A DNA stretch of 22,535 bases from a virus. The position numbers and the translations under genes are program-made. The stretch is taken from positions 1 to 22,535 of the IMG/VR virus record IMGVR_UViG_3300008108_000781, one strand, 5' to 3'. Of the stretch, positions 1,008 through 21,140 are shown one piece after another (the stretch's first letter is position 1; every line of letters begins with the position of its first letter). The notes beneath the pieces were generated by a model. That model was not told the DNA's origin. It searched no databases and was given only the letters and a program-made list of their open reading frames with translations.

Positions 1008-1015
1008 TATTTAGT
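1008..1015 (-). promoter_or_regulatory. Possible variant late promoter (ACTAAATA) before gp15
   Basis: The minus strand reads ACTAAATA, one base off the T4 late consensus TATAAATA in its conserved seven. It overlaps the TAA stop of gp14 and lies 23 bases before the gp15 ATG. The same CTAAATA variant precedes the giant fibre gene, which gives it some weight. A chance match in AT-rich DNA, or one forced by the stop codon, is possible. Confidence 0.4.
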
Positions 1016-2442: not shown

Positions 2443-3273
2443 TTATCCTATGAGATCGAGTGGTGGTAGTTCGTACTCGTCTTTTAATTGTTGTTCTAGT
2501 TTTTCAACCTCGGCTACACCATCATCATAAATTTGTCTTCCATTTAGTTGAACTCCACCGGGAAGTAAAACTCCATTAAATTTGATCATGTTTTGTCCCC
2601 ACTGTTTTTTAATTAAAGCAGTAAGGTATTTCTTTAACCACCAATCATTGTAAAGTTTTGGAGCATCTGAAGGATCAACGATTCTATAACAATCAATAAT
2701 TACATACTCATTCTCACCAACTTGTTGCCAATCTATGTCTAAGTATAACTTATGATTCTTTTTGTTAAAACGAATTTGAGCATGAGGATTTAATAAGTAA
2801 TCTAGATCTTCAAGATATCTTTTAACCATAGCATAGTTAAGTAGATCTAATGCACCATAATAATAAACATCATTTAAAAATAACTGATATTTAATATTAA
2901 AAAGACCGTCCGAAACTGTACTAGAGTTTATCTTAAGAATACTATTAACACCAATAATTGAATCTGGAAGGGGTAGATAGTTTACTCCTTCAACATAAGA
3001 AAGAGATGTCAAACCAGCTCCAACAACAGTTGGAGATGTAGTAGCAGAACCTATAGGTCCAGGTTGAGCCAATGTTGATTTGGTTGCAGGAGTGAGTTTG
3101 TGTTTTAAAAACACACGATCAATACCATCATAATGACGTTCATGATAATATTGAATTGCATCATCAATTAGATTATCAATTTGATCATCATCTACATTTA
3201 TCTCTAAAACTGGCTTTCCTAGTTGTTTGAGGCAATAATCTTTCAACTCCGCTCTACTAGATGGTTGCGCCAT
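2443..3273 (-). CDS. 13: gp13-like neck protein
   Basis: This is the T4 gp13 head-completion/neck protein, which acts with gp14 at the portal vertex. Evidence is an N-terminus of the form RAELKDYCLKQLGKPVLEIN with DDDQIDNLIDDAIQYYHERHYDG (split here at residues 28-50), matching the T4 start [20 protein letters not shown]. At the C-terminus, WWLKKYLTALIKKQWGQNM and GVLLPGGVQLNGRQIYDDG match T4 (RWVKDYATALAKELNGQ and GMMLPGGVTIDGQRLIEE), ending in LDLIG. T4 gp13 is about 309 residues and this one is 276; the middle is shorter, and a Gly/Ser/Thr-rich linker lies at about 66-92. The gene directly precedes gp14. Its start is unusual: the ATG immediately follows the T7 tract of a hairpin, so the only Shine-Dalgarno-like bases (AGGGG) lie in the hairpin's 3' arm, 9 bases upstream. 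Confidence 0.92.
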   Translation of the reverse strand: MAQPSSRAELKDYCLKQLGKPVLEINVDDDQIDNLIDDAIQYYHERHYDGIDRVFLKHKLTPATKSTLAQPGPIGSATTSPTVVGAGLTSLSYVEGVNYLPLPDSIIGVNSILKINSSTVSDGLFNIKYQLFLNDVYYYGALDLLNYAMVKRYLEDLDYLLNPHAQIRFNKKNHKLYLDIDWQQVGENEYVIIDCYRIVDPSDAPKLYNDWWLKKYLTALIKKQWGQNMIKFNGVLLPGGVQLNGRQIYDDGVAEVEKLEQQLKDEYELPPLDLIG

Positions 3274-3314: not shown

Positions 3315-3322
3315 TATTTATT
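3315..3322 (-). promoter_or_regulatory. Second T4-type late promoter motif (AATAAATA) before gp13
   Basis: The minus strand reads AATAAATA, overlapping the TAA stop of the fibre gene, 14 bases upstream of the CATAAATA motif. It matches NATAAATA, but it lies in a run of A and T, so chance is more likely than for its neighbour. A transcript from it would include the whole hairpin. Confidence 0.45.
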
Positions 3323-6300
3323 TTTTAAGTTCATTAATTTGATTTTTCAGGTCTTCTATTTGTGATTGTTGTTCTTTAATTGCCTCGATTAGAACTGCTA
3401 CCATGTTTCCATAAGCAACAGACTTAGTTCCATCTTCAGTTTCAAATACTAATTCAGGGATTACTTCTTCAACTTCTTGAGCGACAACACCAATTTGATG
3501 TTCGCCATTCATATCAATACGATCATATTCAACTCCACGCAACTTCAATACTTTTTCTAGAGCCTTTTCAATTGTATTGATGTTTGTCTTTAATTTAATA
3601 TCAGATTGTGCAGTTACTGTGCCTGGGAAAGTAGTATTACCGGAACCATCAAGGAGAGTTGCAGTTCTGGTTAGAGTTGAAAATACGCCAGTATATTGTC
3701 TAACGTAAATTGGTTCGGTTCCATCATCTGCAGTTGCAATTTCAACATAACCAGCGTTAGAAGCAGTGCCTCCGATTAAAATGCGGAACTGGTCGTTGTC
3801 CGCCATGTTACCACGAACAAGTTCAGTGGTATTTGTTCCAGTTACAGTATTGGTTAAATTACCAGTTACATTACCAGTAACGTTTCCAGTCACATTACCA
3901 CTTACATTACCAGTCAATGCACCAACAAATCCTCCAGTTGAAGTTGTTACTCCAGTAACTCTAATGCCAGTGGAATTAACAATTACATTAGTACCAATAG
4001 TAGCAGAAGTAGCAGTTAATGCGTTAACCGTAACACTTGGGGTTCCAGTTAATCCAGTAGCATTACCATTGATACTACCGTTAAATGTTCCAGAGAATGT
4101 TGCGGTAATTATTCCTGCGTTAAAGTTACCAAAAGCATCACGAGCTACAATGGTGCTTGCTGTATTTGCTGCAGTTGCGTTTGATGTAACAGTAAATGTA
4201 GCTGCTCCAGAGTTATTATAAGTGGTGGAACCAGAAATACCAGTTCCAGATGTATTCATAGTTAATGTATTCGCAAGAGGTCTCTGCCATGTACCAGAGT
4301 CATTCCACAATTCTAGATTACTTGCAACGTTCCAAGAACCAGTTGCATTATTAGATGCATACCATCTTGCGCCACTTCCAGGTTGGAGTAAGAACAATTG
4401 GTTATTATTGTTACCAGCTGGAGCACTATGTACCCAAGATCCATCAGTATAGTAAATATTAGAACTTAAGAAGACTATTCCATCCCAAGTAAGAACACCA
4501 AATGATGACTGGGAAGGTTTCTTGATGATCAATTGAGAGTCATTATCACCAGTTGTTCCGTTAACAACTAGTCCACCACCACCAATCGCTGTTCCAGTAC
4601 CACCAACAATTGTTGTACCCGTAATAGTATTTCCATTAATATTACCAGAAGCATCACGTCTTACAATAGTATTTCCTGTATTTGTGGTTGCAGAACTAAA
4701 TCCATTGAGTAAAGCAGCATTTAAGTTAGTTACCTCTGTAGTTGAAGAAACTGTAAATGGAGCAGTTCCTGTTGCAACTGTTGAAATTAATCTTGTAGCA
4801 GAAATTGTTGAAGCGGCAGTTAAAGCTCCTGCAGCAGTTAGAGTTAATATTTCTGAGAATGATGTTTGGCTATTTACTTTATACCATCTATGAGTTCCTC
4901 CAGAATAATAAGAAACCGTATCACTATGAATTCCAAATCCACCAGCCCAAGTACTGCCATCATTATAAAGGGTAATTTTATTTGGACCACGAGCAGCATC
5001 ATTAAAGGAATTATCAAATACTAATCTCTTATAAGTTCCAAATGCAGTGGTATTAGAAGAAGCACCACCATCATTGATGGTAACATTGTTACTGAATGTT
5101 CCAGCGCCGCCACTAAATGTTGTTGCACTAATTGTACCAGCGCTAAAGTTACCAGAAGCATCACGAGAAACTATCGCACCTGCAGTATTTGCAGAAGTTG
5201 CATTAGATGTAACTGTGAATGTAACAGCACCAGAACCATTATAAGTTGTAGAATTGTTAGTTAATGTATCAGTTGAAGATACAGTTACAACATTAACGCC
5301 TTCAACGGCAATTCTACCTGCAGAAGCTCTAGTAATTGTAGTGTCAGTTAGATTTCCAAGTTCAATCGAAGTAATAATTCCCGATGTAGCTGTTATTGTA
5401 TTAACAGTGATACTTGGTGTTCCACTTAAGCCTGTTGCATTTCCAGTGACGTTGCCAGTTAGTGGTCCTACGAATGAAGTTGCAGTTACTACGCCAGTTA
5501 CGTTAATACCTGTAGAATTGAGAACTACATTTGTACCCACTACACCTGAAGTTGCAGTTAAAGCATTGATAGTGATACTTGGTGTTCCACTTAAGCCTGT
5601 TGCATTTCCAGTAACATTTCCTGTCAATGGACCTACAAAAGAAGTTGCAGTTATTATACCAGTTACATTGATACCAGTGGAATTAAGAACTACGTTTGTG
5701 CCTACTACAGCTGAAGTAGCAGTTAGAGCATTGATGGTGATACTCGGAGTTCCTGAGAGACCTCCTGCTGTACCACTCACATTACCTGTTACATTGCCAG
5801 TAACATTACCAGTTAATGGACCTACAAATGAAGTTGCAGTTACAATTCCTGCAGCAAATCCACCAAGAACGTTACGAAGTACAATTCTACTTGCAGTATT
5901 TGCACTATCAGTAGAGTAACCTTCCAATAGTGATGCATTAAGATTAGTTACCTGTGTGGTAGAAGTGACAGTAAATGGAGCTGTACCTGTTGATACATTG
6001 GAAATAAATCTTGTAGCGGTAACAATACCTGGGAACGTAGTATTACCGGAACCATCAAGAAGAGTTGCAGTTCTCTGTAAGGATGTAAAAGTACCACTGT
6101 ACTGTCTTACATAAATTGGTTCTGTTCCATCGTCTGCAGTTGCAATTTCAACATAACCAGCGTTAGAAGTTGTTCCACCAATAAGGATGCGGAAGAAATC
6201 ATTATCAGCCATGTTACCACGAACTAGTTCTGTGGTAGCAGTTCCTGTAACAGTATTACTGATATTACCTGTTAGGTTGCCTGTAACATTACCAGTTAAA

Positions 6301-9300
6301 TTGCCAGTTACATTACCGGTTAGAGGTCCAACGAAAGAAGTAGCCGTAACAATACCTGCACTAAATCCACCCCAAGCATCTCTAGAAACAATAGTACTTA
6401 CCGTATTAGTTGTTGAAGAGTTGAGTCCATCAAGTAAATCTGCATCTAGTCCAGATCCAGAACCATCATTACCTTGATGCCATAACTTGTTCCAAGCTGT
6501 TGTTCCACTACCATTTGTTGAACGATAGTAAATATCATTACTATTATAAAAACTTCCAGCAAACTGCATTGCATAGTAATTCGCTGTATTACTATGTGTA
6601 GAACTGAGAAGGTGATACCAAGTATTTGTTGTTTGTGGCCAACCTTCTGCAGTTGTAGCAGTGTCAGTCTGCCAGAAACCACTCTTAGTTCTTGTAGTAA
6701 TATCGTCCTTGGTTTTAGCTTCAGCTTCAAATGAACTTGAGAATAATTGTGTTCCTGACCAAGTATTTGATCCGTCTAAAAGTGGAATTGTATTTCCAGA
6801 TGTTCCAGTGTTCTTCCCATCAAGTAAATCTGCATTCAAATTAGTTACTAATGTAGTAGAAGAAACTGTGAATGGTGCAGTTCCTGTAGCCTGAGTTGAT
6901 GTGAATCTTGTTGCTTGTATTGCTCCAGTAAATGTACCTGTTCCAGCAACACTAACTGTTACAACATCTGTTCCTCCAGAATTTCTAAGAATCCAATTCG
7001 TTGTATACTGATTATAAAGAGAACCGTTGAAGTATTGAATCTTCGCAGCTTTATTGCCCGTCCAATTTGAACTATTTGCAAAAGAAATATCTTTATCAAT
7101 TAGAACAGTGAATCCAGCACCCACTACTCCTGCAAATTCTGGACTTCCAGTTAAAGTATAAGAACTTCCATTTCCAAGTAAAGTAAATCCAAGTGAAGGA
7201 GCTGCAGTAAGATTAGTTCCACCTCTTGTTACTGGTAGAGTTCCAGTACTATTGAGAATATCAAGATAATATGCACTGTTCTGACCACCTAGAGTGGCAG
7301 CATCCACATCTCCAGTCACAGAATTCTTAATACTTATAGCACCATCTGTACCAACTGTAAATGTAGAAGACTTGAATCTAGATACACCAAGAGTTGAATA
7401 TTCATCTGAAGAAGTTTGAGCTCTATTCAGAGTTATGTTGATATTTCCATAGTAAGTATTAACTCCAACTCCACCTGGGGCTAGTTCGGAACTAGTAGCA
7501 GTTACACCAATTGGTTGAGTTGTTCCAATTCCAACTGAAGTAATTACTTTCTGATATGAAGAATCACCTCTCAAGAATGTCTGGTCATTAGCAGTTCCAC
7601 TTCCAAGTCTAGATGGTGATAATGTACCAGTAATAATGTTGGACGCATCTAAACTTCCTACAGAAAGTAGTGACCAATTATTGGTATCTGAAGATGAAGT
7701 GTTAACAGTTCTAGAATACTCAACATTTTGCTCTGTAAGAGTCATAATTCCTACAGCACTATTAATGGTGCCTCCTGCCAAACTTACAGTGTTTAGAAGT
7801 AGACCATTAATAGAAGCTAAAGCCGCAGCTCTAGTTTCATGGAATGTAAATGAGTTTGTAGTTACTGATCCAGCAAAGTAGAAACTACCAGTAGTAATTC
7901 CGGTTGGAGTATTACCAGTGACTTTTACTGCTTCACCCTGACTCAATCCATGGTTTTTAAATGTTATCTGATCAGTTAAAGTATTGACCCCAACACGACT
8001 CAATGAATGAGTTAAAGTACCACTACTTGTCAGATCTTTAATAGTTACAAGTGCATAGGTTGAATAAAGTTGAACAGATGTTAAACCTACAGTCTTAATA
8101 TAATATGTTGTAGTGTCCAGTAGTGGACCTATTGGAGTTCCACCACCACTACGGTAAATTACTGGATCTCCATCAACAAAACTATGACCAGATCCAACAA
8201 CAATTCTATCATTTGCAAAGTCAACACTACCGCCAACGCTAATATCCGTAGGGGTGAAGGTTACAGTATATCCTATTCCAATATTAGTTGAAATAGCAAC
8301 TGCATTTCTATCAGAAACGAAGTCTGAAAGTGCAGAACTTCCTGGGAATTTCTGTCCATTAGAAAGGGCAAGATAGAGCCTTGTTTCTACAGTAGCTATG
8401 TTAACAGTAAAGTTAGATCCACCAGTTCTTCCACCAATTGGAGTGGGATTATTAAGAGTTAATACGTCACCTACAGCAAATTTGTATCCACCAGTATTAA
8501 TTGCAACATTAGTAACTGTTCCACTAACACCAACTGTAATCGTAGCAGTAATTCCGGTTCCAATACCAGTAGAAGTATCAAGACGAACACCCGTATAGAT
8601 TCCTGGATTATTGTATCCAGAACCACCAACTAAAGAATTCAATGTTAAAGGTACGCCTCTGACAAGACCAGTAGTTCCATAACCTACATTTGGGAAAGAT
8701 AATGTAGTTGTACCTAAACCAACTCCAATTCTTGGTGGAGCAGTTACAACACCAATTGCACCACCACCAGAAGTTACACTAACTACTTCATCCCCATTCA
8801 GGAAATTGTAGACAGTTGAATTGTTTAGAACCAAATATTGACCTACAGTATCAGTAATTAGAACGAATGAATCTGTTGGCTCAACTACAGTATCTCCGGA
8901 TACTAAGCTAGTAGCAGGAATATAGTTAACTAACTGAGTTCTTCCACCATCTACTGAAGACTTATAGTAATTGACAGTTTTTGGTGGAATTAGATCAGCA
9001 TTAATTTGACCGATTGAATTGAGTTGAACAACAGCGTTAGGAATAGCGTTTGTAGAAACTGATTTATCAATAAAATCTCCAAGTCTATTATTCAAGAATG
9101 ATCTAGTTGAAAGTTGTGTAGGAACTCTAGAGTGCTTAGGTCCACCAATTTCATTATCACCAAGATCCGTATCCGTAGAGAACTCTTCAATTACGTTACC
9201 ACCAGACAGCGATAATCTAATAGAATCAAGAGTACCAATAGTAACAGTATTATTGAAGATAATGTTACCAGTTCTGTTATAGGCAACAATCGAATCACCA

Positions 9301-12300
9301 ATCTTAAAGTCTCCAAGTTCATTGGTACCGGATGAATAAACTCTACCACCAAGTTCAGAAACTTGTTCAGATCTTGGATCGGTTTGACCTCCATTTTGTG
9401 GGAGAGCATTATAATCTATACCAGAACCAGAGAATTCCCAAGTGTGTGATGAAGAGTTTACAATAGATGGTCTGTGGAAGTGTAGTTTATACACTTCAGG
9501 TAAAGTTCCAATATTCTGAACGAGTGTTCCAGCTATTGTAGAATCTGTCTTAAATTCAACAGTCCAATAAGTAGTTAATCCGACAACAGCACTTACCCCG
9601 ATAGAAATCGGAGATGGACTGTGATCATTAATGTTTAATACTGTTGTTCCATTAGTAACTGAGAAATTCCTTCTAACTCCAGAAGAAAGTTCTAATGCGA
9701 CAATAAGTTCTCTAGTAGTGTTGTTATACGTTACCGCAAATCCAGTTGCAGTTCCTCCAACTACAGTTTGACTGATTAATCTACCAGAAACAAACGATGC
9801 TGTAGAACCCACTCCAGCAAGGGTTAGTTTTTGATATGAATTATGTGAATCAATAATTTCTTTTACGAAGAAGTCTTGAGTTGACTTTGTAATAGTATGA
9901 ATACCAGTACTTAGTGAAGTCAAGTCAACGATGGTATTCAATGACTCATCTTCAGCTAACTTGAAATTATCAGCATCAATATAAACAACATAGTATTGGT
10001 TGTCGTTAACCAGTCCACCAACAATTCTATTTGGAATTACTTGTTCGTCTCCATTGTAAATAACTGGATCAGCATTATTAAATCCGTGAGTTGTAATTGT
10101 AATAGTATTCTCAGTTAGACCAACTCCAGTAGCTCCATTAAATTCTTTTACTGTTACTGCTGGTTTGAACTGTGAAGTTCTATCAACTCCATTTCCATCG
10201 AAGAATCTGAGAATATAGTTTTCAACATCAGATCTACCATATCCAACTGCCTTGAGTGTTTGTAATCCACCAGAAGTGCCAGTCGCGGCAACTCTACCAC
10301 GATCAAAAATGAACGAATTTCTACTATATCCAGTAGATCTTAAAGCATATAAACCGAAGTTAGTTGCAGAGTTTGTAATGGATAGGTATCCACCAGACTG
10401 CGCTAGGGATCCATATCTACAGAAAATTTGGAAACAAGAAACAACCTGTGAATATCCATCGTTAATAACACGCCAACCGATACCACCGAAGGAAACCATC
10501 GTAAATGCTGCGGCAACCATGGACTTACCTTGTTCTGGTTGAATAGCATCTGGACCAACTTCTACCTCTTCAGAAATAAGAGGTACGTTTGGTGTTAGTA
10601 CTTTATTTCCATCAACCAACATTCCATTACCACCTAAGAATGATAGAATGGAACAGTTCTGAATATATGGAGATCTAGTAATAGTTGGTTTGTCTAATTT
10701 AGTAGCATAACCGGCTCTGGAAGTTAGATTATCCGAAGGATCATCAAAAGCTACAGCGTAATCAAATGTATTTTGGGGAACACCTGCGAGATCAATCGCA
10801 TCCTTCATAGCAAAACCAGTGAGATAGATTCCATTTCTTACACGGAATAAATCTTTACCAGCATTTGCAGGTCTAATTATAGTATTTCTTAGGTTATCGC
10901 CAACGATTGCAACATCATCATAAAGAATGATTGGGTTATCTTCTACATAGTTTCCAGCCTCAACGATAATACAAACAGGTTGTGACTGTGTTCCTGGTGC
11001 AACCAATGCTGGGGCTGCAGTTGTGCCAAGACCAACAATAGTTGTAATGATGCCAACATAGTTAACTAATGCAGATCTGACATCCGCACAATCGGTTAAA
11101 CCTAAGTTTGTAGTTGCAATTCCAACAATACTTCCACTAATGACTGCAGTTGTAAGAATTCCAACAAGGTTATCAATATTAGATCTTATGTTCGCACAAA
11201 CATTTACATCTTTGTTTGTGGATCCAACACTAACATCATTTTGGATACTTAAATCCTGGTAATTTAACCAATTTGTTACAGCTCTCTTTGCATAAGTACC
11301 TAAACTCTGGAATGCGTAAGCTGAGATTACTTCTTCACCCAACAATCCATCTGTTCTTGCTGCACCAGCACCATCGAAGTACTTTTTAGTTGCATAAAGA
11401 ATATGTTGGTTAGTTCCGTAAGAGATATCTTGAGCAACAGCATCGACAATGTATCCAAGATCTCTTGCACATTTACGTCCACCAACAACATTAGTGGTTC
11501 CAATTCCTACAAAATCACTTACATTATAGGTAGAGTTGACCAAGAAATATCCATAATTTGTTGTTGCACCAATTCCAGCAGTACTACCAGAACCAACAGC
11601 TGTTGTAACAATTCCAGTCAACGTATCAATAGTTGATCTTACATTAGAACAAGAATTAGGATCAGTGTTAAATCCAGTTACTGGATCTGCAGTAATAGTA
11701 AGATCTCTAGAATTAAGCTGATTGGTAACAGCTTTCTTCATGTAATCTCTAGCACTCTCAAACACATAATTAGATTCTGCGGTTTCTCCGGCTAAACCAT
11801 CCGCAAGAAGATTACCTACATTACTGAAATAGAATCCAGTAAATGCACGAGCATAATTATTACCACCTGTAAACACATCAGTAGAAACGGCATCAATAAA
11901 GAATCCGGTATCTCTAGCACACTTCCAGATACCCTCTGTCATTCCATATCCAATGACGTTGAGATCAAAATCACCGTAATTTACTGCAGGGAGTCCACTA
12001 GTATTTCCAACTCCTATTGCTGCAGTTACGATTCCAACGAGAGAAACAATGGTATTTTGTACATCTGTACATGCAGTTGTACTGGAAACACCTACGTTAC
12101 CTCCACCTCCGTTATATGTTTCTGGTCCACTAGAAACATTCAAATTCTTATTTGTGAGAAGATTTGTAATAGCTCTTCTCATCTGAGTTCCAGCTTGTTG
12201 GAATCCGTAAATTGTTTGTTGTTCTTCTCCAGCTAAACTGGTAGTTCCTACACCAACAAAATAGAATCCTGTGAAAGCTCTTGCATAATTATTACCACCA

Positions 12301-15300
12301 GTAAAGACATCAGTAGAGACTGCATCAACAAAGTATCCCAAGTCTCTCTGACACTTAGCTGAAGAAACTCCAGAAGACCAAAGTGTTGGGTATTGAACGG
12401 ATATTGCAGTTAAAGCGGTAGCAACAATCTCACTCTTATTAATTTGGATTAATCTATAAGCATCATAATATCTGGAATCTTCTGTAGTTGATGTGACTCC
12501 AGGGCCTGGAACATAGAATCCTGTTGGGAATCCAATAGCAATAGATGCGATTGATTTATCTACGATTTCTTGTTTGTTAATCTGGATTAACTTATAAGAA
12601 TCATAATATCTGGATCTTTCATTAGTTTCTTGTTCACCTGGGAAGTAGAATCCAGTTGTAGCAGCAAGAGCTACAGATGCAAGAGACTTATCAATAATTT
12701 CTTGACGGTTGCCAATGATCAGATTTCTAGCATCTTTAGATCTATGGAAGTAGTTTGTATTTGTATTCTCTGGATCATCAATAATTGTAAAATCAAAAGT
12801 TTGAGATACTGCAGTCTGATAAAGGGTTGGTGGCGACTGGTTATTAATAATATATTGACCAAGGAATTTAATATACTCATATGCAAAAATAGCCTCTTCT
12901 TCTTCACCTGCAACATATGAAGTAGCACCAGACCAATACGCTAATCCAGCTTCTCTAGACTTGGAATTTCCACCAAATCTAATATCATAAGCTAATGCAT
13001 CTACAAGATATCCAATATCTCTTTTACAAATTACTGGATCATAATCCATCAAACGAGTTGAAATATCCTCATAGTTGAATTCAAGATAAGCTACTACTTC
13101 TTCTTTAATGAATTCTTTGTTGGATTCAATTAAATTACCAGCATCAAGGTATCTTTGACCAGGAATGATAAAGCTATCAAAAGATGCTAATTGTGATGCC
13201 CTCTTAATGGTTTTAACTGGAAGAGTTTTACCATCATTTGCGTCATCACCATTAACTGAAGAAACATAATATCTGTTTTCATACAATCCAGTACCAGTTG
13301 CAAATCCCAGAGTTCCATCTGCATTTAAACCAAGTAATTGTCCATTCTGACCTAATGTTGGTGGTAAAACCAAATCATAATTGGTTGCAATTCCAAGTTG
13401 TGATGTCTTAAATGTAACGTTATTTCTAAGAGAAGTAAATGTATTAATTCCAGAAACTTGAACATTCGTAAATACACCGACGTTACCGGTAATACTGTTA
13501 ACACCGCTTACATTATTATTGTTTCCATTTATTGTTACTGAAGACGATCCAATTGTTAAAATTCCAGTAATTCTTGCATTACCAGTTACAACTAAACTTG
13601 TATTACCAGTACCAATTCTAACATTACCAAGTGTAGAAATACCACTTACATTGATGTTTGTTGCACTTAAGTGAGTAACGAATCCAAGAGTTGCATTTAA
13701 ATTATCTACGTTACCATTAACAATATTAACATTTTGTCCTATTAGTGAACTTGCGTTTGCACTGGTTATAATACCAGAATTAATATATGCAGTATTAATA
13801 TTAAATGCAGTCGCTACCGCTGTTGTAATTCCAAGATAAGTCGCAATTCCACTATTTACATTTAAAGTATTGACAGTAGCAGTTGTTATATTTGCATTTG
13901 TTATAATACCTGCATTGATTTTTGCTTCATTAGTTACACTACTAGTAATTCCAAGATAAGTTGCAATACCGGCGTTAAGATAAAGCAGGTTAGCAGAACC
14001 AGAAGTAATTCCTACATTTGTAATAATACCTGTATTAACATAAGAGGTTCCTGAATAAGAAACTCTTACATCCAAATAAGTTGCAACTCCAGTGTTTACA
14101 TTTAATCTATCAATAGTTGCGGTAGTTATTCCAGCAGAGGTAATTACACCAACATTGATGTTTGCTCTATCAGTTAAACTAGTTGTAACACCGAGATAAG
14201 TTGCAAACCCAATGTTTATATTTGCTGATCCAATATATGCAGTGTTTATATGAGCAGTTGTTACAATACCAGTATTAATATTAGCTTGATTTGTATATGA
14301 AGTGGTAACATTCGCATTTGTTATTGTTGCCGCAGTAATTACACCAACATTAATATTAGCACGATTTGTATAAGATGTAGAAATACTAGAATTTGTTACT
14401 ACTTCTGAATCTATTATAGCCGAAGTAATAATTCCAGTATTAATATTAGCCACATTACTATATGATGTGGTGATGTTGGCATTAGTTATTATTGCCGCAG
14501 TAATCACACCAACATTAATATTGGCTTGATTTGTATAAGATGTTGAAATTCCTGCATTTTGAATTGTTGCATATTCGATAGATGCATTAGTAATGATGCC
14601 ACTATTAATATTAGCAGTATTAGTATAAGAATTCGTGGCATTTATATTAGTAACCGTAGCCGCAGTTATGAATCCTACGTTAATATTAGCTACATTAGTG
14701 TATGAACTTGTGATGCCTGCATTAGTTATTACTGCAGATGTTAAAATACCACTATTGATATTAGCTTGATTTGTATATGAAGTAGTGATATTTGCATTAG
14801 TGATTATAGCACCAGTAATAATTCCCGTGTTAATATTGCCAGAGTTTACATATAGTGTTGAAACAGATCCATTAGTTATCGTCGCGGCGGTAATTAAACC
14901 TACGTTAATATTAGCTTGATTTGTGTATGAAGTGCTAATATTCGCATTAGTTACTATTGCATTTGTTATAGTTGCATTAGTAATAATACCACTATTAATG
15001 TTAGCTACATTAGTATATGATGTAGTGATTCCTGCATTAGTTATTATGGCTTCAGTGATGATACCACTATTGATATTAGCTTGATTTGTATATGAAGTAG
15101 TGATATTTGCATTAGTTACTGTAGCCGCAGTTATAAATCCTACATTAATATTAGCTACATTAGTATAGGACGTAGTAATATTGGCATTAGTCGTTACTTC
15201 ATTTGTTATAGTTGCATTAGTGATAATTCCACTATTAATGTTAGCTACATTAGTGTATGATGTGGTGATTCCTGCATTAAGAATAGTTGCATATTCAATA

Positions 15301-17690
15301 GTTGCAGCAGTAATAATACCACTATTAATGTTAGCTACATTAGTATAGGACGTAGTAATATTGGCATTAGTGATTATAGCACCAGTAATAATTCCTGTAT
15401 TAATGTTGCCAGAATTGACATATAGATTTGAAACTGATCCATTAGTTATTGTTGCTGCAGTGATAATACCAGTATTGATATTAGCTGTATTTGTGTAAGA
15501 GGTTATAATATCTGCATTAGTTACTACTGCCTCAGTAATTACACCTACATTGATATTAGCTCTATTTGTATAAGAAGTAGAGATTCCTGCATTAGTAATA
15601 GTAGCGGAATCAATAGTGGCTGAAGTAATAATTCCACTATTAATGTTAGCTACATTAGTATATGATGTAGTGATTCCTGCATTAGTTATTATGGCTTCAG
15701 TGATGATACCAGTATTAATATTGGCCTGGTTTGTATAAGAGGTGGTAGTAAAGGAGTTGTCAATAATACTAGTCTGGCCAGTTAACGAAGTTACAACGCC
15801 AAGATTAATATTAGCTACATTAGTGTATGATGTGGTAATATTGGCATTAGTAATAGTTGCGCCAGCAATAGTAGCCGAAGTAATAATTCCACTATTAATA
15901 TTGGCTACATCAGTATAAGACGTGGAGATTCCAGCATTAACAATAGTTGCAAACTGAGTATTAGAACTTGTAATTCCCGCTTGACTAATCGTAGCTGATG
16001 TTATAATTCCAGTATTAATATTGGCTTCATTAGAGTAAGATGTTGCAACAAATGAAAATGAGGTTATTCCAACATTAATATCTGCCGAACTAATAGTTGC
16101 ACTAGTAATAATGCCAGTATTAATATTAGCAATGTTTGTATAAGAGGTGGAAATTCCAGCATTAGAAATAGTCGCACTAGAAATAGTAGCTGTAGTAATA
16201 ATTCCACTATTAATATTGGCTTGATTTGTGTAGGAAGTGGTAATATTGGCGTTGGTAATAGTGGCACCAGTAATCGTAGCTGTAGTAACAATACCGATGT
16301 TAATATTAGCTTGATTTGTATATGATGTTGTTATACCAACATTACCTATGGTAGCATTAGTAATAATACCTGTGTTAATATTAGCTTGATTAGTGTAAGA
16401 CGTGCTAATATTAGCATTAGTTACGGTAGCACCAGTAATTGTAGCAGTAGTAATGATACCACTATTAATATTAGCCGTATTTGTATAAGAATTCGTAGCG
16501 TTTATATTAGTAACAGTAGCTCCACCAATTGTAGCAGTTGTGAGGATACCAATATTGATGTTTGCCTGATTAGTTGTAGATGTCTGTACATTAAGGTTAG
16601 TAATTCCAGCACCAGTTATGGTTGCAGAAGTAATGATACCAATATTAATCCTAGCAGTATTAGTATTGGAATTAGTAATATTGGAACCTAAAATTATAAC
16701 ACTTGTAATAATACCGGTATTGATATTAACATCATTTGAATATACGGTAGTTGCATTTAAATTACTAACAACTGCTGAATTAATTGAGGCTGTAGTAATA
16801 ATACCCGAATTAATATTAGCTTGATTTGTATATGATGTATCACTGAATAGTGTATTGACAATTGCCGCAGTACTATTGATATCGCTTGTATCAATAAAAT
16901 CGGAGTATACTCTTGGAATATCTGCTCTTCCGGCTTTTGGATTACCAATTACAATATTATTATCAGTGATAGGAGGAGGTGTAAGAACAAAGTTGTAATC
17001 ACGAGTAAGTCCTATGGTTGTTCCAGCGAGTGTCTGTGTAGCATTTGTGGATATAGTTATTGTAGTTGTAGTCTTTGAGACTACAGTAGTACCTGCGGAA
17101 ATATTAGAAGGACTATCTAAATCTTCAACAAACGCTCCAATTTCAACTTGAGCAGTATCGAGAGCGCTTACACCAGCAATTACATTACTTCCTGCTGTAG
17201 TATTTCCAAGAATATCTACTTCGCCAGAGAAAGGATTTGTTGCCCCGTAGGTTAATTGGATTTGATCTATTCCTACAGAAAATACTTGTTCATCCGAACG
17301 TAAGTATTGCCCAGTAATTCCATATCCTACGCTAATACTTGCAGTGTTTATTCCAATAATACTAAAAGAACTTGGGAATTCAAATCGACCAGTCTTATTA
17401 ACAAGACGACTTGCGAAATTATCAGCTAATAATATAATATCAGATCCAAATCCTGTAATAATTGATGTACTTCCTGTCCCTAAAGTTACACCAGCTCCAA
17501 TTGTTACAGTATCGCCTTTTCTGAGTCCTAAAGTAGCAATTCCTAATATTCTATTACTGGAAACAGCGGATATTATTCCAGTTTTTGTTAAAAGAAATCT
17601 TTCATTTATATTTAAATATTCTGAGTTTACAGAACCACTAATATCAGCATTACCAACTACGACTAATTCAGAATTTGCAACTACTTTCAA
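3318..17690 (-). CDS. Giant multidomain tail fibre / adhesin with C-terminal Peptidase_S74 chaperone
   Basis: One open frame encodes 4790 residues. Map: 1-284, N-terminal region opening with SELVVVGNADISG, a pattern common in marine phage fibres; about 285-1315, tandem NIN(S/T)GIIT array; 1316-1465, linker; about 1468-1500, YYVSSVNGDDANDGKT followed by TIKRA, typical of phage pectin-lyase-like beta-helices; about 1555-2230, four CxRD modules; about 2237-2510, resumed beta-helix (VCIIVEAGNYVEDNPIILYD); about 2534-3294, three 'HGF..GDPVIY'-type modules; about 3600-4690, ADLLDG and GNVTG repeats; 4696-4790, Peptidase_S74. In that last domain SDIKLKTN gives Ser4696 and Lys4701, the spacing of the known self-cleaving pair, then HQIGVVAQEVEEVIPELV and a C-terminal coiled coil. 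Such chaperones trimerise the fibre and then cut themselves off. The start is TTG (17690), as no ATG lies between it and the in-frame stop at 17726. Host-receptor binding is inferred. Product mass is near half a megadalton. Confidence 0.9.
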   Translation of the reverse strand: MKVVANSELVVVGNADISGSVNSEYLNINERFLLTKTGIISAVSSNRILGIATLGLRKGDTVTIGAGVTLGTGSTSIITGFGSDIILLADNFASRLVNKTGRFEFPSSFSIIGINTASISVGYGITGQYLRSDEQVFSVGIDQIQLTYGATNPFSGEVDILGNTTAGSNVIAGVSALDTAQVEIGAFVEDLDSPSNISAGTTVVSKTTTTITISTNATQTLAGTTIGLTRDYNFVLTPPPITDNNIVIGNPKAGRADIPRVYSDFIDTSDINSTAAIVNTLFSDTSYTNQANINSGIITTASINSAVVSNLNATTVYSNDVNINTGIITSVIILGSNITNSNTNTARINIGIITSATITGAGITNLNVQTSTTNQANINIGILTTATIGGATVTNINATNSYTNTANINSGIITTATITGATVTNANISTSYTNQANINTGIITNATIGNVGITTSYTNQANINIGIVTTATITGATITNANITTSYTNQANINSGIITTATISSATISNAGISTSYTNIANINTGIITSATISSADINVGITSFSFVATSYSNEANINTGIITSATISQAGITSSNTQFATIVNAGISTSYTDVANINSGIITSATIAGATITNANITTSYTNVANINLGVVTSLTGQTSIIDNSFTTTSYTNQANINTGIITEAIITNAGITTSYTNVANINSGIITSATIDSATITNAGISTSYTNRANINVGVITEAVVTNADIITSYTNTANINTGIITAATITNGSVSNLYVNSGNINTGIITGAIITNANITTSYTNVANINSGIITAATIEYATILNAGITTSYTNVANINSGIITNATITNEVTTNANITTSYTNVANINVGFITAATVTNANITTSYTNQANINSGIITEAIITNAGITTSYTNVANINSGIITNATITNAIVTNANISTSYTNQANINVGLITAATITNGSVSTLYVNSGNINTGIITGAIITNANITTSYTNQANINSGILTSAVITNAGITSSYTNVANINVGFITAATVTNINATNSYTNTANINSGIITNASIEYATIQNAGISTSYTNQANINVGVITAAIITNANITTSYSNVANINTGIITSAIIDSEVVTNSSISTSYTNRANINVGVITAATITNANVTTSYTNQANINTGIVTTAHINTAYIGSANINIGFATYLGVTTSLTDRANINVGVITSAGITTATIDRLNVNTGVATYLDVRVSYSGTSYVNTGIITNVGITSGSANLLYLNAGIATYLGITSSVTNEAKINAGIITNANITTATVNTLNVNSGIATYLGITTAVATAFNINTAYINSGIITSANASSLIGQNVNIVNGNVDNLNATLGFVTHLSATNINVSGISTLGNVRIGTGNTSLVVTGNARITGILTIGSSSVTINGNNNNVSGVNSITGNVGVFTNVQVSGINTFTSLRNNVTFKTSQLGIATNYDLVLPPTLGQNGQLLGLNADGTLGFATGTGLYENRYYVSSVNGDDANDGKTLPVKTIKRASQLASFDSFIIPGQRYLDAGNLIESNKEFIKEEVVAYLEFNYEDISTRLMDYDPVICKRDIGYLVDALAYDIRFGGNSKSREAGLAYWSGATSYVAGEEEEAIFAYEYIKFLGQYIINNQSPPTLYQTAVSQTFDFTIIDDPENTNTNYFHRSKDARNLIIGNRQEIIDKSLASVALAATTGFYFPGEQETNERSRYYDSYKLIQINKQEIVDKSIASIAIGFPTGFYVPGPGVTSTTEDSRYYDAYRLIQINKSEIVATALTAISVQYPTLWSSGVSSAKCQRDLGYFVDAVSTDVFTGGNNYARAFTGFYFVGVGTTSLAGEEQQTIYGFQQAGTQMRRAITNLLTNKNLNVSSGPETYNGGGGNVGVSSTTACTDVQNTIVSLVGIVTAAIGVGNTSGLPAVNYGDFDLNVIGYGMTEGIWKCARDTGFFIDAVSTDVFTGGNNYARAFTGFYFSNVGNLLADGLAGETAESNYVFESARDYMKKAVTNQLNSRDLTITADPVTGFNTDPNSCSNVRSTIDTLTGIVTTAVGSGSTAGIGATTNYGYFLVNSTYNVSDFVGIGTTNVVGGRKCARDLGYIVDAVAQDISYGTNQHILYATKKYFDGAGAARTDGLLGEEVISAYAFQSLGTYAKRAVTNWLNYQDLSIQNDVSVGSTNKDVNVCANIRSNIDNLVGILTTAVISGSIVGIATTNLGLTDCADVRSALVNYVGIITTIVGLGTTAAPALVAPGTQSQPVCIIVEAGNYVEDNPIILYDDVAIVGDNLRNTIIRPANAGKDLFRVRNGIYLTGFAMKDAIDLAGVPQNTFDYAVAFDDPSDNLTSRAGYATKLDKPTITRSPYIQNCSILSFLGGNGMLVDGNKVLTPNVPLISEEVEVGPDAIQPEQGKSMVAAAFTMVSFGGIGWRVINDGYSQVVSCFQIFCRYGSLAQSGGYLSITNSATNFGLYALRSTGYSRNSFIFDRGRVAATGTSGGLQTLKAVGYGRSDVENYILRFFDGNGVDRTSQFKPAVTVKEFNGATGVGLTENTITITTHGFNNADPVIYNGDEQVIPNRIVGGLVNDNQYYVVYIDADNFKLAEDESLNTIVDLTSLSTGIHTITKSTQDFFVKEIIDSHNSYQKLTLAGVGSTASFVSGRLISQTVVGGTATGFAVTYNNTTRELIVALELSSGVRRNFSVTNGTTVLNINDHSPSPISIGVSAVVGLTTYWTVEFKTDSTIAGTLVQNIGTLPEVYKLHFHRPSIVNSSSHTWEFSGSGIDYNALPQNGGQTDPRSEQVSELGGRVYSSGTNELGDFKIGDSIVAYNRTGNIIFNNTVTIGTLDSIRLSLSGGNVIEEFSTDTDLGDNEIGGPKHSRVPTQLSTRSFLNNRLGDFIDKSVSTNAIPNAVVQLNSIGQINADLIPPKTVNYYKSSVDGGRTQLVNYIPATSLVSGDTVVEPTDSFVLITDTVGQYLVLNNSTVYNFLNGDEVVSVTSGGGAIGVVTAPPRIGVGLGTTTLSFPNVGYGTTGLVRGVPLTLNSLVGGSGYNNPGIYTGVRLDTSTGIGTGITATITVGVSGTVTNVAINTGGYKFAVGDVLTLNNPTPIGGRTGGSNFTVNIATVETRLYLALSNGQKFPGSSALSDFVSDRNAVAISTNIGIGYTVTFTPTDISVGGSVDFANDRIVVGSGHSFVDGDPVIYRSGGGTPIGPLLDTTTYYIKTVGLTSVQLYSTYALVTIKDLTSSGTLTHSLSRVGVNTLTDQITFKNHGLSQGEAVKVTGNTPTGITTGSFYFAGSVTTNSFTFHETRAAALASINGLLLNTVSLAGGTINSAVGIMTLTEQNVEYSRTVNTSSSDTNNWSLLSVGSLDASNIITGTLSPSRLGSGTANDQTFLRGDSSYQKVITSVGIGTTQPIGVTATSSELAPGGVGVNTYYGNINITLNRAQTSSDEYSTLGVSRFKSSTFTVGTDGAISIKNSVTGDVDAATLGGQNSAYYLDILNSTGTLPVTRGGTNLTAAPSLGFTLLGNGSSYTLTGSPEFAGVVGAGFTVLIDKDISFANSSNWTGNKAAKIQYFNGSLYNQYTTNWILRNSGGTDVVTVSVAGTGTFTGAIQATRFTSTQATGTAPFTVSSTTLVTNLNADLLDGKNTGTSGNTIPLLDGSNTWSGTQLFSSSFEAEAKTKDDITTRTKSGFWQTDTATTAEGWPQTTNTWYHLLSSTHSNTANYYAMQFAGSFYNSNDIYYRSTNGSGTTAWNKLWHQGNDGSGSGLDADLLDGLNSSTTNTVSTIVSRDAWGGFSAGIVTATSFVGPLTGNVTGNLTGNVTGNLTGNISNTVTGTATTELVRGNMADNDFFRILIGGTTSNAGYVEIATADDGTEPIYVRQYSGTFTSLQRTATLLDGSGNTTFPGIVTATRFISNVSTGTAPFTVTSTTQVTNLNASLLEGYSTDSANTASRIVLRNVLGGFAAGIVTATSFVGPLTGNVTGNVTGNVSGTAGGLSGTPSITINALTATSAVVGTNVVLNSTGINVTGIITATSFVGPLTGNVTGNATGLSGTPSITINALTATSGVVGTNVVLNSTGINVTGVVTATSFVGPLTGNVTGNATGLSGTPSITVNTITATSGIITSIELGNLTDTTITRASAGRIAVEGVNVVTVSSTDTLTNNSTTYNGSGAVTFTVTSNATSANTAGAIVSRDASGNFSAGTISATTFSGGAGTFSNNVTINDGGASSNTTAFGTYKRLVFDNSFNDAARGPNKITLYNDGSTWAGGFGIHSDTVSYYSGGTHRWYKVNSQTSFSEILTLTAAGALTAASTISATRLISTVATGTAPFTVSSTTEVTNLNAALLNGFSSATTNTGNTIVRRDASGNINGNTITGTTIVGGTGTAIGGGGLVVNGTTGDNDSQLIIKKPSQSSFGVLTWDGIVFLSSNIYYTDGSWVHSAPAGNNNNQLFLLQPGSGARWYASNNATGSWNVASNLELWNDSGTWQRPLANTLTMNTSGTGISGSTTYNNSGAATFTVTSNATAANTASTIVARDAFGNFNAGIITATFSGTFNGSINGNATGLTGTPSVTVNALTATSATIGTNVIVNSTGIRVTGVTTSTGGFVGALTGNVSGNVTGNVTGNVTGNLTNTVTGTNTTELVRGNMADNDQFRILIGGTASNAGYVEIATADDGTEPIYVRQYTGVFSTLTRTATLLDGSGNTTFPGTVTAQSDIKLKTNINTIEKALEKVLKLRGVEYDRIDMNGEHQIGVVAQEVEEVIPELVFETEDGTKSVAYGNMVAVLIEAIKEQQSQIEDLKNQINELKK
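3603..3605 (-). other. Predicted Peptidase_S74 self-cleavage site in the giant fibre
   Basis: These bases are the TCT codon for Ser4696 in QSDIKLKTN. In characterised fibre chaperones of this family, the bond before the equivalent serine is cut and a lysine five residues on (here Lys4701) is needed. Cleavage would release a 95-residue C-terminal chaperone and leave a 4695-residue mature fibre. The chaperone is at the short end for the family. Confidence 0.75.
3621..3848 (-). repeat. Copy 2 of a duplicated 76-residue fibre module (next to the S74 domain)
   Basis: Residues 4615-4690 run from TVTGTNTTELVRGNMADND to DGSGNTTFPG. By eye, 68 of 76 residues equal those of the module at 6027-6254. 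Stretches such as SNAGYVEIATADDGTEPIYV are unchanged, and the DNA is partly identical as well. This copy leads directly into the chaperone domain. Confidence 0.85.
3870..4055 (-). repeat. GNVTG/GTPSITINALTATS repeat, distal copy
   Basis: A diverged copy of the 55-residue repeat at 5430-5830. It reads GLTGTPSVTVNALTATSATI, then GTNVIVNSTGIRVTG, then GFVGALTGNVSG and several NVTG units. It lies just before the second 76-residue module. Confidence 0.75.
5430..5830 (-). repeat. Tandem ~55-residue GNVTG/LSGTPSITI repeats in the fibre
   Basis: Two almost identical units occur in tandem, each reading LSGTPSITINALTATS, GTNVVLNSTGINVTG and ATSFVGPLTGNVTGNATG. A partial third unit (GTPSITVNTITATSGIITS) follows on the 5'-to-3' path of the gene. 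Short GN(V/L)TG units are strung together at several places (about 3870, 5780 and 6280). The pattern is that of beta-structured fibre shafts, which is inference. Confidence 0.8.
6027..6254 (-). repeat. Copy 1 of a duplicated 76-residue fibre module (internal)
   Basis: Residues 3813-3888 run from TVTGTATTELVRGNMADND to DGSGNTTFPG, differing from the copy at 3621-3848 at only 8 of 76 positions. This copy lies about 800 residues before the other and is followed by more fibre sequence and not by an S74 domain. Confidence 0.85.
11090..13035 (-). repeat. Four CxRD helical modules within the fibre
   Basis: Related modules begin at residues 1555 (CKRDIGYLVDALAYD), 1780 (CQRDLGYFVDAVSTD), 1924 (CARDTGFFIDAVSTD) and 2074 (CARDLGYIVDAVAQD). 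Copies 2 and 3 share the 15-residue run TGGNNYARAFTGFYF. Each module continues with an Ala-rich helix, an 'RA(I/V)TN.L' segment and, in the last three, a second Cys in C..V...I..L.GI.T. Between the first two lie three linked 'QINKQEIVDKSIASIA' type units. Such modules are familiar in marine cyanophage fibre-like proteins, but I know no established function for them. Confidence 0.75.
14989..15066 (-). repeat. 78-bp exact direct repeat, copy A
   Basis: This stretch is identical base for base, by eye, to 15634-15711 in the fibre's tandem array. Most copies in the array differ at synonymous sites, so exact identity over 78 bases points to recent duplication or gene conversion. Confidence 0.8.
15634..15711 (-). 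repeat. 78-bp exact direct repeat, copy B
   Basis: Second copy of the exact repeat at 14989-15066, 645 bases away (215 codons, so in frame). Shorter exact pairs also occur in the array: 56 bases at 14746-14801 and 15061-15116, and 41 bases at 15151-15191 and 15331-15371. Confidence 0.8.
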
Positions 17691-17723: not shown

Positions 17724-19991
17724 TTAAATAATACATACATAAGTTCTTGGTATTTGGAAAGGATTTATTGTAGTTATTCCAACATTCTGTAGAATATAAA
17801 TTGTTCCTAGTCCTGTGTACGTTGACCTTATATAAGACTCTCTTCCGGAAGAGACTGCAAATAGACTTCCTAACGCATTGTAGGTCTTCGATAGTGAGTT
17901 GTCCGCAAATCCACCAATTGAGACTATTCCAGAACCTTCCGGTGATGGTACGAATCGATATGAAGTATCACCATATATCGTTACTAAACCAGTACCAGAT
18001 TTTTCAAACAGATCGGTTTGTCTTGTAGACGCATCACCAGAAATTGTGATGTTTCCAACTCCAACATTAGAATATTCAAGTTCAATTCTTGTTTGAGCAG
18101 ATCCAGTAATTTCAAAAAGAATTGTGTTCTGTGGAACATTAGTTACCCTAGATTCCGAACCTCCGGACAACTTAAGTATTGTACCAATTCCAATATAAAT
18201 CTCAGATTCTTTTTCAATTAGGTTAGAACTTATAGATAGAGTTCCTATTCCAGAATAAGAATTCGTTAGCTTAAGATCAGTAAATCCTCCAACAAACTGA
18301 ACTGAACCTATTCCACTATAAACAAATAGATCAATTTCTCTAGTATCAGCTAATCCACTTAAATTAAATAGAACTGTATTTTCAGGTGGATTACTTACGA
18401 AACTTACAAGTGCTGCATCTTGATAATCACAAGTAACTTCTGTGGAATCGCAAGTGTCATATTCACTATCCGAAATATGAGTCTCGAAGTGGAACAAGAC
18501 AGTTGATCCGTCATTTCGAGTGATACTAATATCGGAATATCCAACTATACTTAGATTTCCATCACCTTCATATACATAAGTGCGACTTGCATTAGACTCC
18601 CCAGAAATCTGATATAGAATAGTATCTTCTGTCGGATTGATAGTGAGACTTTGTACAGAAGTTCCGGAAATATTAAATAAGACCGAATCTCCAACTTGAG
18701 ATATTGTTGAAGATTCGGAAGCACCGGAGAAATAACCTAATACACCAATTCCTACATAAGATTTTGTTTTCTTAATATCTGATGCAAATGCATCAATAAC
18801 TACCAGTCCTTCACCAACATATGAATTAGAAATTCTTTCTTCGGCATTTTCCTGGTCATATACAACTGTTCCAAGACCAGCATAAGTATATGTTCCAAAC
18901 TTACCAAATCCAGTAGCTCCACTGGAAATACCGATCTCACCTAATCCAAAATAACTTGATCTTGTAAATGATTCGGAAACACTTCCATTAATTACAAAAA
19001 GACCTACTCCGAAGTAAGGAGTTAGTGGAGAATAAACAGCAAGGTTTCTTACTTGATCAAATCTAAATGTACCTATACCAGAACCGGAGTTCGTATCGCC
19101 ATTAACATTTCCATATCTGTTGGAATATGTCTTGGCATCACGAGGATTTCCATCTCCGTCTGGTGTAAATCCAGCTCCAGGTACAAATCTAATTCCAAAA
19201 GTACCGACACCAATGTTTTGATCTATACCATAATGTGGAGTATAATCAACAAAAGGATGTACAGTATCAGAATTGTAAAGGCTAGGTAACGTTCCAAATC
19301 CAATATAGGTCTCGGTTTCACTCTCAATAACATTCGATGAGAGGTTTAATGTACCAAAACCTACGTAAGGTGTTAAACGAGAAGTATTTGCAGAATCTGA
19401 AAGAATTAATGAACCGGAACCAAATATGGATCCGGTTTGCGTAATGATAGATGAACCATCAATACTTAGTAGTCCAGTGCCGTTATATGCGTCTACGTCT
19501 TTTTCTACAGCAAATCCAGAAATGCTGAAGAGTTGAGTATTTGTTGTATCTGCGGTTTGTACAGTTAGTGAGGATTCCGCAGAATTATTTTCACCAAGTC
19601 GTAAGGTTCCGGAAGATACGTAAGGTCTTAGTGTTCTTTCTAATCCGCTACCTATTTCGAATAAAGTACCATTACCAACCCAAGTAAAGGTTACTTTCTC
19701 TGTCGCGGTCTTAGCTATAAAGGATATATTTCCAGAAGCAACATATGTAGCATATGTAATAGACTCTCTACCTGAAGATAAGGTAAATAACGATCCATAT
19801 GGATAGAGAGTTTCTCCAACTGATATGAGATACCAATCATCTTCAGGACTTGGAGCTGGAGTGTATACTGGATTTGGTTCTGTTATTAGTCCATTGTCTA
19901 CTGATACTGTCGTCGCAGCTGAAATTAACCCATAATCCTCAGTAGAAAATGAGTTAATTCCAGTGGATTCATTGTAAACATAGACTGTCAT
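17724..19991 (-). CDS. Glycine-rich repeat virion structural protein (755 aa)
   Basis: This is a beta-rich, repeat-built protein of the kind found in the fibre region of marine T4-like phages; no specific function is established that I know of. The N-terminus has DYGLIS and DNGLITEP motifs. From about residue 50 on, a degenerate unit of about 22-45 residues recurs some twenty times, of the form Y-x-G-x-G-x-(L/I)-x-I-S-G-x-A-x-S-R, for example YVGFGTLNLSSNVIES, YSGIGTLSISSNLIEK and YTGLGTIYILQNVG. Two interruptions stand out: an Asp/Gly/Asn-rich loop at about 273-301 (FTPDGDGNPRDAKTY then GNVNGDTNSGSG), which might bind metal, and a Cys pair at about 513-523 (CDSTEVTCD). The ATG at 19991 has no clear Shine-Dalgarno sequence. 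The gene lies downstream of a strong terminator with no NATAAATA motif in the gap. Its TAA stop is in the same frame as the giant fibre. Confidence 0.8.
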   Translation of the reverse strand: MTVYVYNESTGINSFSTEDYGLISAATTVSVDNGLITEPNPVYTPAPSPEDDWYLISVGETLYPYGSLFTLSSGRESITYATYVASGNISFIAKTATEKVTFTWVGNGTLFEIGSGLERTLRPYVSSGTLRLGENNSAESSLTVQTADTTNTQLFSISGFAVEKDVDAYNGTGLLSIDGSSIITQTGSIFGSGSLILSDSANTSRLTPYVGFGTLNLSSNVIESETETYIGFGTLPSLYNSDTVHPFVDYTPHYGIDQNIGVGTFGIRFVPGAGFTPDGDGNPRDAKTYSNRYGNVNGDTNSGSGIGTFRFDQVRNLAVYSPLTPYFGVGLFVINGSVSESFTRSSYFGLGEIGISSGATGFGKFGTYTYAGLGTVVYDQENAEERISNSYVGEGLVVIDAFASDIKKTKSYVGIGVLGYFSGASESSTISQVGDSVLFNISGTSVQSLTINPTEDTILYQISGESNASRTYVYEGDGNLSIVGYSDISITRNDGSTVLFHFETHISDSEYDTCDSTEVTCDYQDAALVSFVSNPPENTVLFNLSGLADTREIDLFVYSGIGSVQFVGGFTDLKLTNSYSGIGTLSISSNLIEKESEIYIGIGTILKLSGGSESRVTNVPQNTILFEITGSAQTRIELEYSNVGVGNITISGDASTRQTDLFEKSGTGLVTIYGDTSYRFVPSPEGSGIVSIGGFADNSLSKTYNALGSLFAVSSGRESYIRSTYTGLGTIYILQNVGITTINPFQIPRTYVCII

Positions 19992-21095: not shown

Positions 21096-21104
21096 TCGAA
21101 ATAA

Positions 21105-21110
21105 CTCCCC
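21105..21110 (-). promoter_or_regulatory. Shine-Dalgarno site of the 335-residue virion gene
   Basis: GGGGAG on the minus strand, 9 bases before the ATG at 21095, is one of only two clear Shine-Dalgarno sequences at gene starts in the window. It fixes that start. Confidence 0.7.
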
Positions 21111-21140
21111 TACAGGCTACGATTTTGTAATAACTATCTT

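Follow-up and report, generated by a model that had tools for sequence, protein, structure and literature searches.

Does one uninterrupted reading frame that occupies 63.8% of a 22,535-base virus record encode a single virion protein and, if so, of what parts is that protein made? The record, called the window below, is the whole stretch of DNA that was analysed. The first-pass annotation, made from its letters, had proposed a frame open over 14.4 kb, about two thirds of the window, that encodes one modular chain of fibre type with an S74 chaperone at its end. Both proposals are upheld: the frame comprises 4790 codons at 3318-17690 and lies on the minus strand, reading from 17690 to 3318. An array of helical modules and an Mtd-type head were both overlooked in that reading.

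Genomic setting and completeness of the frame

The window carries the following genes and junctions:

1-984, minus strand: gp15-like tail sheath stabiliser (PF16724), truncated at the edge of the window
1011-2441, minus strand: gp14-like neck protein (PF11649)
2443-3273, minus strand: gp13-like head-tail adaptor
3318-17690, minus strand: giant tail-fibre ORF of 4790 codons, its TTG start read as an artefact of missing DNA
5253-5254, minus strand: junction lacking 168 bases that are present in contig G003
17680-17682, minus strand: junction lacking 209 bases (the ATG and about 66 codons with Mtd_N), by comparison with contigs of the same phage
17724-19991, minus strand: structural protein of 755 aa upstream of the fibre gene
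20088-22419, minus strand: four small virion genes of 335, 225, 110 and 79 aa

The fibre gene is flanked by T4-type neck and tail genes, with gp13-, gp14- and gp15-like genes downstream and the small virion genes upstream, and the gp13-gp14-gp15 cassette has the gene order of cyanophages (Kyanoviridae, T4-like cyanophages). The four small genes have counterparts in the same order in phage S-SCSM2R, where the counterpart of the 755-aa upstream protein is 1369 aa long and annotated TolB; this upstream protein varies in length, measuring 1089-1552 aa in several relatives. A 206-base indel in L013, another contig of the phage, would frameshift the 335-aa gene. The gp14-like protein is 476 aa in the window, and frames of 755-780 codons are found in G007, G008, G009, G012, S-SSM7 and Sf-FS3, in which the gp14-like match splits into two separated halves.

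The giant ORF is not a product of chance, because syntenic single ORFs precede gp13 in six related contigs (G013, G006, G009, G007, G008 and G012; lengths of 3316, 3613, 3581, 3584, 3584 and 3579 aa) and a 3403-aa single ORF has the same place in S-SCSM2R. This last protein, SSCSM2R_112 (PQ898602, 'large exoprotein'), occupies the same slot between the TolB-named gene and gp13, begins with MTKQVQLRRG like the intact contigs discussed below and carries the helical modules, but it is shorter and shows 41.8% identity to the window chain over the longest aligned stretch. Single-gene giants also occur at other genomic places, in S-PM2 (3338 and 3779 aa), Syn1 (4017 aa), S-RSM4 (4482 aa) and S-CAM1 (3693 aa). 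The S-PM2 fibre S-PM2p091 and 'short tail fiber' YP_195253 are virion proteins of this kind with the same modules, although at other genomic positions, YP_195253 just downstream of cpeT. Size was therefore rejected as a novelty: single-gene giant fibres are common in cyanophages, and the fibre of the window is of ordinary size among them. Relative to G013, its extra length falls mostly in the repeat shaft and the distal part, as placed by local alignments of repeats. The first 300 residues of the window chain matched zero phage records in a tblastn search.

Whereas the long tail fibre of T4 (gp34-gp37) is split over several genes, the window and its relatives have one ORF. S-SSM7 and Sf-FS3 agree in the order of the genes upstream and have an Mtd_N-type protein with the MTKQVQ sequence, but they encode the head (152 aa) and the fibre (1477 aa) in two different genes, and modules were not found in these phages. 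The chain encoded by the window ORF has a mass of 496 kDa, and three such chains would come to about 1.5 MDa, in keeping with the earlier estimate that a trimer would exceed a megadalton.

Giant genes elsewhere have peculiarities of their own. Module matches in P-SSM4 (about 70.5-75.7 kb) lie inside an open frame of 7312 codons, and DSL-LC03, whose genome is described in PMC10611076 as assembled from a lake metagenome, has three giant genes in a row (2297, 2241 and 3161 aa). The S-PM2 record annotates 16 tRNA genes within the giant fibre gene (in the region 161000-180000); ARAGORN finds none there, and the annotated tRNA coordinates are therefore probably shifted.

The fibre-type N-terminus with which the first-pass annotation had credited the window was not borne out. 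The TTG at which the ORF begins sits 11 codons past an in-frame TAA, and five further contigs of this phage (L009, L010, L011, L012 and L014) contain 209 bases that are absent from the window; the same 209-base difference is seen in L013, at the contig's end. The stretch contains an ATG start and encodes MTKQVQLRRG..., a type of N-terminus recognized by pattern in 23 of 29 loci, the remainder (L015, L020, L031, L033, L036 and L037) including some that do not reach the gene. The intact N-terminus of L014 exceeds the Pfam cut-off for Mtd_N (PF18454, E 4.4e-11) and matches Mtd structures of Bordetella phage in the PDB (E 4.9e-10); an N-terminal Mtd_N domain is thus common to Mtd and the intact alleles. 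It is because the 209 bases are missing that the window ORF has no Mtd_N, Pfam at E<=0.01 over the window chain giving S74 only. Once these bases had been found, a genuine TTG start and readthrough from the upstream in-frame TAA were both rejected; judged from this comparison of contigs, the apparent TTG start is created by the loss of DNA from the window sequence.

The bases lacking at the second junction are present in G003, the contig to which L012 belongs. They were considered as a simple copy of the 165-base tandem repeat described below, an idea rejected when blastn matched only 41 bases to the window, at 90%. Contigs of this phage differ from one another by clean indels of 16-315 bases; in the matched blocks there are zero mismatches to the window in L009-L011, L013, L015 and G003, and 4 in L014. 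At the indel breakpoints, the blocks on either side have 0-3 bases in common (7 at one L014 breakpoint), and several of the indel lengths (16, 206, 209, 248 and 251) are not multiples of three. Since the blocks are virtually free of mismatches, the breakpoints share little and the lengths disregard the codon, the indels look like assembly or scaffold gaps rather than real deletions.

The reading frame breaks within the repeat array after 502 codons in L009 and after 578 in L012/G003; in L014 it is open for 2802 codons, to the contig end. Such breaks, together with the clean indels among contigs of one phage, would fit a giant ORF generated by assembly from a genome that really holds several shorter genes. 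Nevertheless, the window ORF holds its frame throughout, and the six related contigs and S-SCSM2R have intact single ORFs of comparable kind (3316-3613 and 3403 aa), so that we consider the existence of several shorter genes most improbable. The earlier concern over a collapsed or chimeric assembly applies in part: the window lacks the start and one more stretch, and assemblies disagree on the repeat array, but the ORF itself is real. No single contig carries the gene whole; arithmetic puts the length of an intact chain at about 4850-4910 aa.

Parts of the chain and the module array

From the N-terminal to the C-terminal side, the window chain is composed as follows:

13791-16838, minus strand: repeat shaft, about aa 285-1300, with periods mostly multiples of 5 residues
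12678-13154, minus strand: module 1, aa 1513-1671 (module profile E 7.5e-20)
12522-12611, minus strand: extra copy of the module start only, aa 1694-1723 (E 2.2e-9)
11964-12473, minus strand: module 2, aa 1740-1909, the copy used for modelling (E 2.7e-67), with Cys1780 and Cys1874
11541-11927, minus strand: module 3, aa 1922-2050 (E 2.3e-55), matching the profile from position 36
11100-11477, minus strand: module 4, aa 2072-2197 (E 2.5e-36), matching the profile from position 36
10194-10700, minus strand: stretch common to cyanophage fibres, aa 2331-2499 (PHROG 5342)
3838-6324, minus strand: distal stretch with tandem repeats of 12-base and 165-base units
3447-3605, minus strand: Peptidase_S74 intramolecular chaperone, aa 4696-4748, with Ser4696/Lys4701

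The order of these parts is read directly from the chain. In the shaft the best periods are 25, 30, 55, 80 and 85 residues, its length varies between assemblies, and Pfam at E<=10 gives zero matches within it. The distal stretch holds 12-base tandem repeats at 3838-3914, 5771-5813 and 6264-6322 and a 165-base tandem repeat at 5406-5753. At the C-terminus, Peptidase_S74 (PF13884) is matched at E 1.1e-14 with 54.9 bits against a cut-off of 22. The Ser-Lys spacing is intact, as had been stated, with Ser4696 and Lys4701, which we take to be the catalytic dyad of S74, at +5 and 95 residues from the serine to the chain end. This part matches PDB entries 6f45 ('Long tail fiber distal subunit', E 3e-7) and 7dc3 (MYRF, E 0.0085), with the dyad aligned.

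Four related helical modules lie within residues 1513-2197. Their first sign was a sub-threshold match to PF00502 (E 0.0038), and plain phmmer with the 1200-residue module region against the PDB gave nothing at E<=1. A profile built from 11 of the 23 listed modules, those with the first helix (profile A1), matched 76 PDB sequences at E<=10, and all 60 listed are phycobiliproteins or dyes derived from them; in the best match, CpcA (2.8e-5), the module cysteine is aligned to the CARD cysteine. Nine of the 11 members match PF00502 at E<=10 (best 1.8e-4), the member examined in detail reaching 0.00081 and 19.8 bits, which is below the cut-off. Profile A2 has 66 rows, the window module and 65 loci; it was drawn from 69 of 80 kept loci (at least 549 relatives), 66 of them distinct, with L133 left out. 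Against the PDB at E<=10, its 35 matches were likewise phycobiliproteins or such dyes, 35 of 35, at weaker values than those of A1 (best 0.002).

Alignment of the module with 40 alpha-phycocyanin-type ORFs of cyanobacterial genomes by hhalign scored 47.5 at a probability of 92.8 (39.4 and 89.5 in the first run); 200 column shuffles reached at most 24.2, and the reversed alignment 12.7. Alignment with 40 beta-phycocyanins was weak (probability 1.2), yet paired both cysteines. Structure prediction by segments, a check proposed at the outset, succeeded for module 2, for which AlphaFold2 on the A2 alignment gave a pLDDT of 85.5 and a pTM of 0.84, but not for the array, whose 1046-residue model is poor (pLDDT 43.9, pTM 0.35). 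Foldseek with the module model returned 183 PDB matches at E<=10, among them one at E<=0.001, the B-phycoerythrin chain 3v57_B (7.7e-4); the 50 listed are phycobiliproteins by title except 8u0f ('Bacterial fluorescent protein'). For the 50 matches listed by VIA-align, Z was 16.1-17.6 and the rmsd 1.9-2.4 A over 131-141 residues, where helical models without a clear match reach about 14 at best and the comparison covers only Foldseek-ranked chains.

The alignments start at residue 27-33 of the matched chains and, on 172-residue phycocyanin chains such as 6hrn_B, VIA-align places residues 1-159 of the model on residues 31-172. The N-terminal part that the module lacks is presumably the X-Y hairpin of phycobiliproteins. 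With the subunits of phycocyanin and phycoerythrin the modules have in common the fold, the CxRD motif and two bilin-site cysteines; they differ in the missing N-terminal part and in standing as tandem copies inside a virion protein. Profile and structure model together show a phycobiliprotein fold for one module.

A tblastn search with 120 aa of module 2 hit 284 phage records out of 50,697; the names of these begin with Synechococcus in 213 cases, Cyanophage in 58, Prochlorococcus in 12 and Marine in one. The A2 profile detected modules in 16 of 21 records and then in three of four more; at E<=0.1 it detected them in neither pelagiphage HTVC008M nor T4. At E<=0.1, PF00502 was matched in eight of ten phage records and, among 14 control genomes, in those of Synechococcus elongatus and Thermus composti, a single one of which exceeded the cut-off. 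Two of the ten phage records also passed it, in each case only together with neighbouring matches in the frame. In BFVD, all six top-ranked matches belong to cyanophages: four rows bear tail-protein names, and the other two are an S-PM2 protein whose name gives no function. The window's own phage has another giant gene (G003:105439-118557, 4372 aa), gp7-like by position, with module matches at aa 2533-2668 and 2755-2807.

Might the likeness to phycobiliproteins amount to convergence of a short helical hairpin? The sequence likeness spans only about 60 residues, module 2 scores 17.8 bits against PF00502, below the Pfam cut-off of 22.2, and a single-sequence search (phmmer) sees no likeness. Convergence on so short an element is nonetheless hard to reconcile with a structural match spanning 131-141 residues at about 2.1 A, with the column-shuffle control or with the restriction of the modules to cyanobacterial phages by tblastn, and we judge it very unlikely. 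Descent from host light-harvesting proteins is probably the origin of the modules. In the literature searched, by title and start of abstract and with few subscription papers covered, no phycobiliprotein-like domains in virion proteins were found; the module array is new as far as that search extends.

Conserved cysteines and the CpeT family

Four positions of module 2 are nearly invariant in A2: Cys1780 (65/66), Arg1782 (66/66), Asp1783 (65/66) and Cys1874 (65/66). A wider set of 77 distinct modules (domain E<=1e-6, from L231-L260 and four further regions, some near A2 rows) keeps the first site in Cys (64/70) and Asp (65/70), with Arg at 44/70 and 7 gaps; at the second site, Cys is kept in 48/58, with 19 gaps. 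We take the position of Cys1780 to be the beta-82/alpha-84 bilin site. On 172-residue phycocyanin chains such as 6hrn_B, the VIA-align range puts Cys1874 opposite residue 153 if the last helix is ungapped, and the weak hhalign pairing with beta-phycocyanin also joins it to a Cys at 153; by numbering, it would presumably be the beta-153 bilin site. T-type lyases act on Cys-153, as indicated in PMC10452541. The two conserved cysteines suggest that the modules may also carry bilins.

The CpeT family of T-type bilin lyases (PF06206) exceeded its cut-off in 14 of 21 records and in two of six more. Among the 27 records, CpeT accompanies 16 of the 19 with modules, the exceptions being DSL-LC03, S-ShM2 and P-SSM7, and none of the eight without (S-SSM7, Sf-FS3, P-SSM2, P-SSP7, S-CRM01, S-SM2, HTVC008M and T4). 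The rule that CpeT implies a module was predicted beforehand for four records and held, P-HM1 and MED4-213 being the only informative ones. For 24 T4-like cyanophage records the one-sided Fisher p is 0.0013, or 0.0021 with three close relatives collapsed, but because the phages are related the counts are not independent events. When only the four full-length CpeT genes (single match >100 bits) are counted, namely those of Syn1, S-PM2, S-RSM4 and S-CAM1, p becomes 0.36. In these phages the gene downstream of cpeT is a giant module-bearing 'short tail fiber', with cpeT 0.7, 1.4, 1.0 and 1.1 kb upstream, respectively, on the same strand. Passages of PMC2984593 report cpeT absent from P-SSM2 and P-SSM4, and the short PF06206 frame in P-SSM4 may therefore not be a true lyase. 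A bilin reductase was also tried as a co-occurring gene and rejected, being present in two of seven records, both without modules.

Two readings of the cysteines were weighed. In one, the modules bind bilin in the virion: phage or host lyases load Cys1780 and Cys1874, and the substrates of phage CpeT are fibre and baseplate proteins of the phage itself. The near-invariant residues of A2, the retention of Cys and Asp at the first site and Cys at the second in the wider set, the location of Cys1874 at residue 153, where T-type lyases act, the distribution of CpeT among module-bearing and module-free records and the position of cpeT 0.7-1.4 kb upstream of the giant fibre gene in four phages all speak for it. 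Set against these are the weaker retention of Arg in the wider set, the three phages with modules and no CpeT, the full length of only four of the 16 CpeT matches together with the p value for those four, the reported absence of cpeT from P-SSM4, the confinement of the bilin reductase to module-free records and, in the window's own phage (G003), a CpeT-like gene at 52957, far from the fibre at 136830-138887. On balance, bilin binding in the virion is a tentative proposition that we rate as rather unlikely.

The other reading holds the modules to be purely structural helical spacers whose cysteines serve in disulfides or packing. The invariant core extends beyond the cysteines, modules are found also in the gp7-like baseplate protein of the same phage, some copies lack a cysteine, and the association with full-length CpeT alone is not significant. 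Such spacers would leave the cpeT linkage unexplained. In phycobiliproteins the two bilin-site cysteines are far apart, and for this reason a disulfide within one module is unlikely. We lean towards the structural reading as the rather more probable of the two, and think that, at a minimum, the modules serve as rigid spacers.

A proposed model of the fibre and a possible relation to light

We are fairly confident that the protein is a T4-like cyanophage tail fibre, a single chain that probably forms homotrimers and that, when intact, comprises an Mtd_N head, a shaft, a phycobiliprotein-fold array, further shaft and S74. The Mtd_N-type head of the intact gene would probably attach the fibre to the tail. 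Beyond it would extend the long pentad-repeat shaft, then the array of four phycobiliprotein-fold helical modules and then, distal to the modules, further fibre shaft. The S74 chaperone may template trimerization and afterwards trim itself off by Ser-Lys cleavage, and receptor binding would be expected near the C-terminal end.

If the modules were loaded with bilins, they might bear on adsorption. S-PM2 is among the cyanophages with light-dependent adsorption. P-SSM2 reportedly adsorbs in the dark (a finding ascribed to Liu, 2019), and the effect of light on adsorption is said, in work ascribed to Jia, 2010, to be independent of host photosynthesis. Model fits given in PMC7112961 suggest that P-HM2 effectively does not adsorb in the dark; for P-SSP7, constant adsorption could not be rejected. 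Modules are present in P-HM2 and absent from P-SSP7 and P-SSM2, a comparison of two or three phages that is anecdotal and includes in P-SSP7 a podovirus that differs in much else. A pigmented and light-sensing fibre, in which CpeT-loaded bilins on the fibre and gp7-like modules absorb light that gates adsorption, is an unlikely extension of these data.

The use of the bilin genes of cyanophages (CpeT, PebS, PcyA) is usually ascribed to host light harvesting, according to PMC10452541 and PMC2984593. A virion protein family with a phycobiliprotein fold and both bilin-site cysteines is a candidate phage-borne substrate for these genes and, if true, bilins on the modules would explain the role of cyanophage CpeT. 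The modules are also a candidate mechanism for the light-dependent adsorption of some cyanomyoviruses, so far unexplained. More broadly, these results suggest that host antenna proteins, or their ancestors, have been taken over as structural components of the virion by hundreds of cyanophages.
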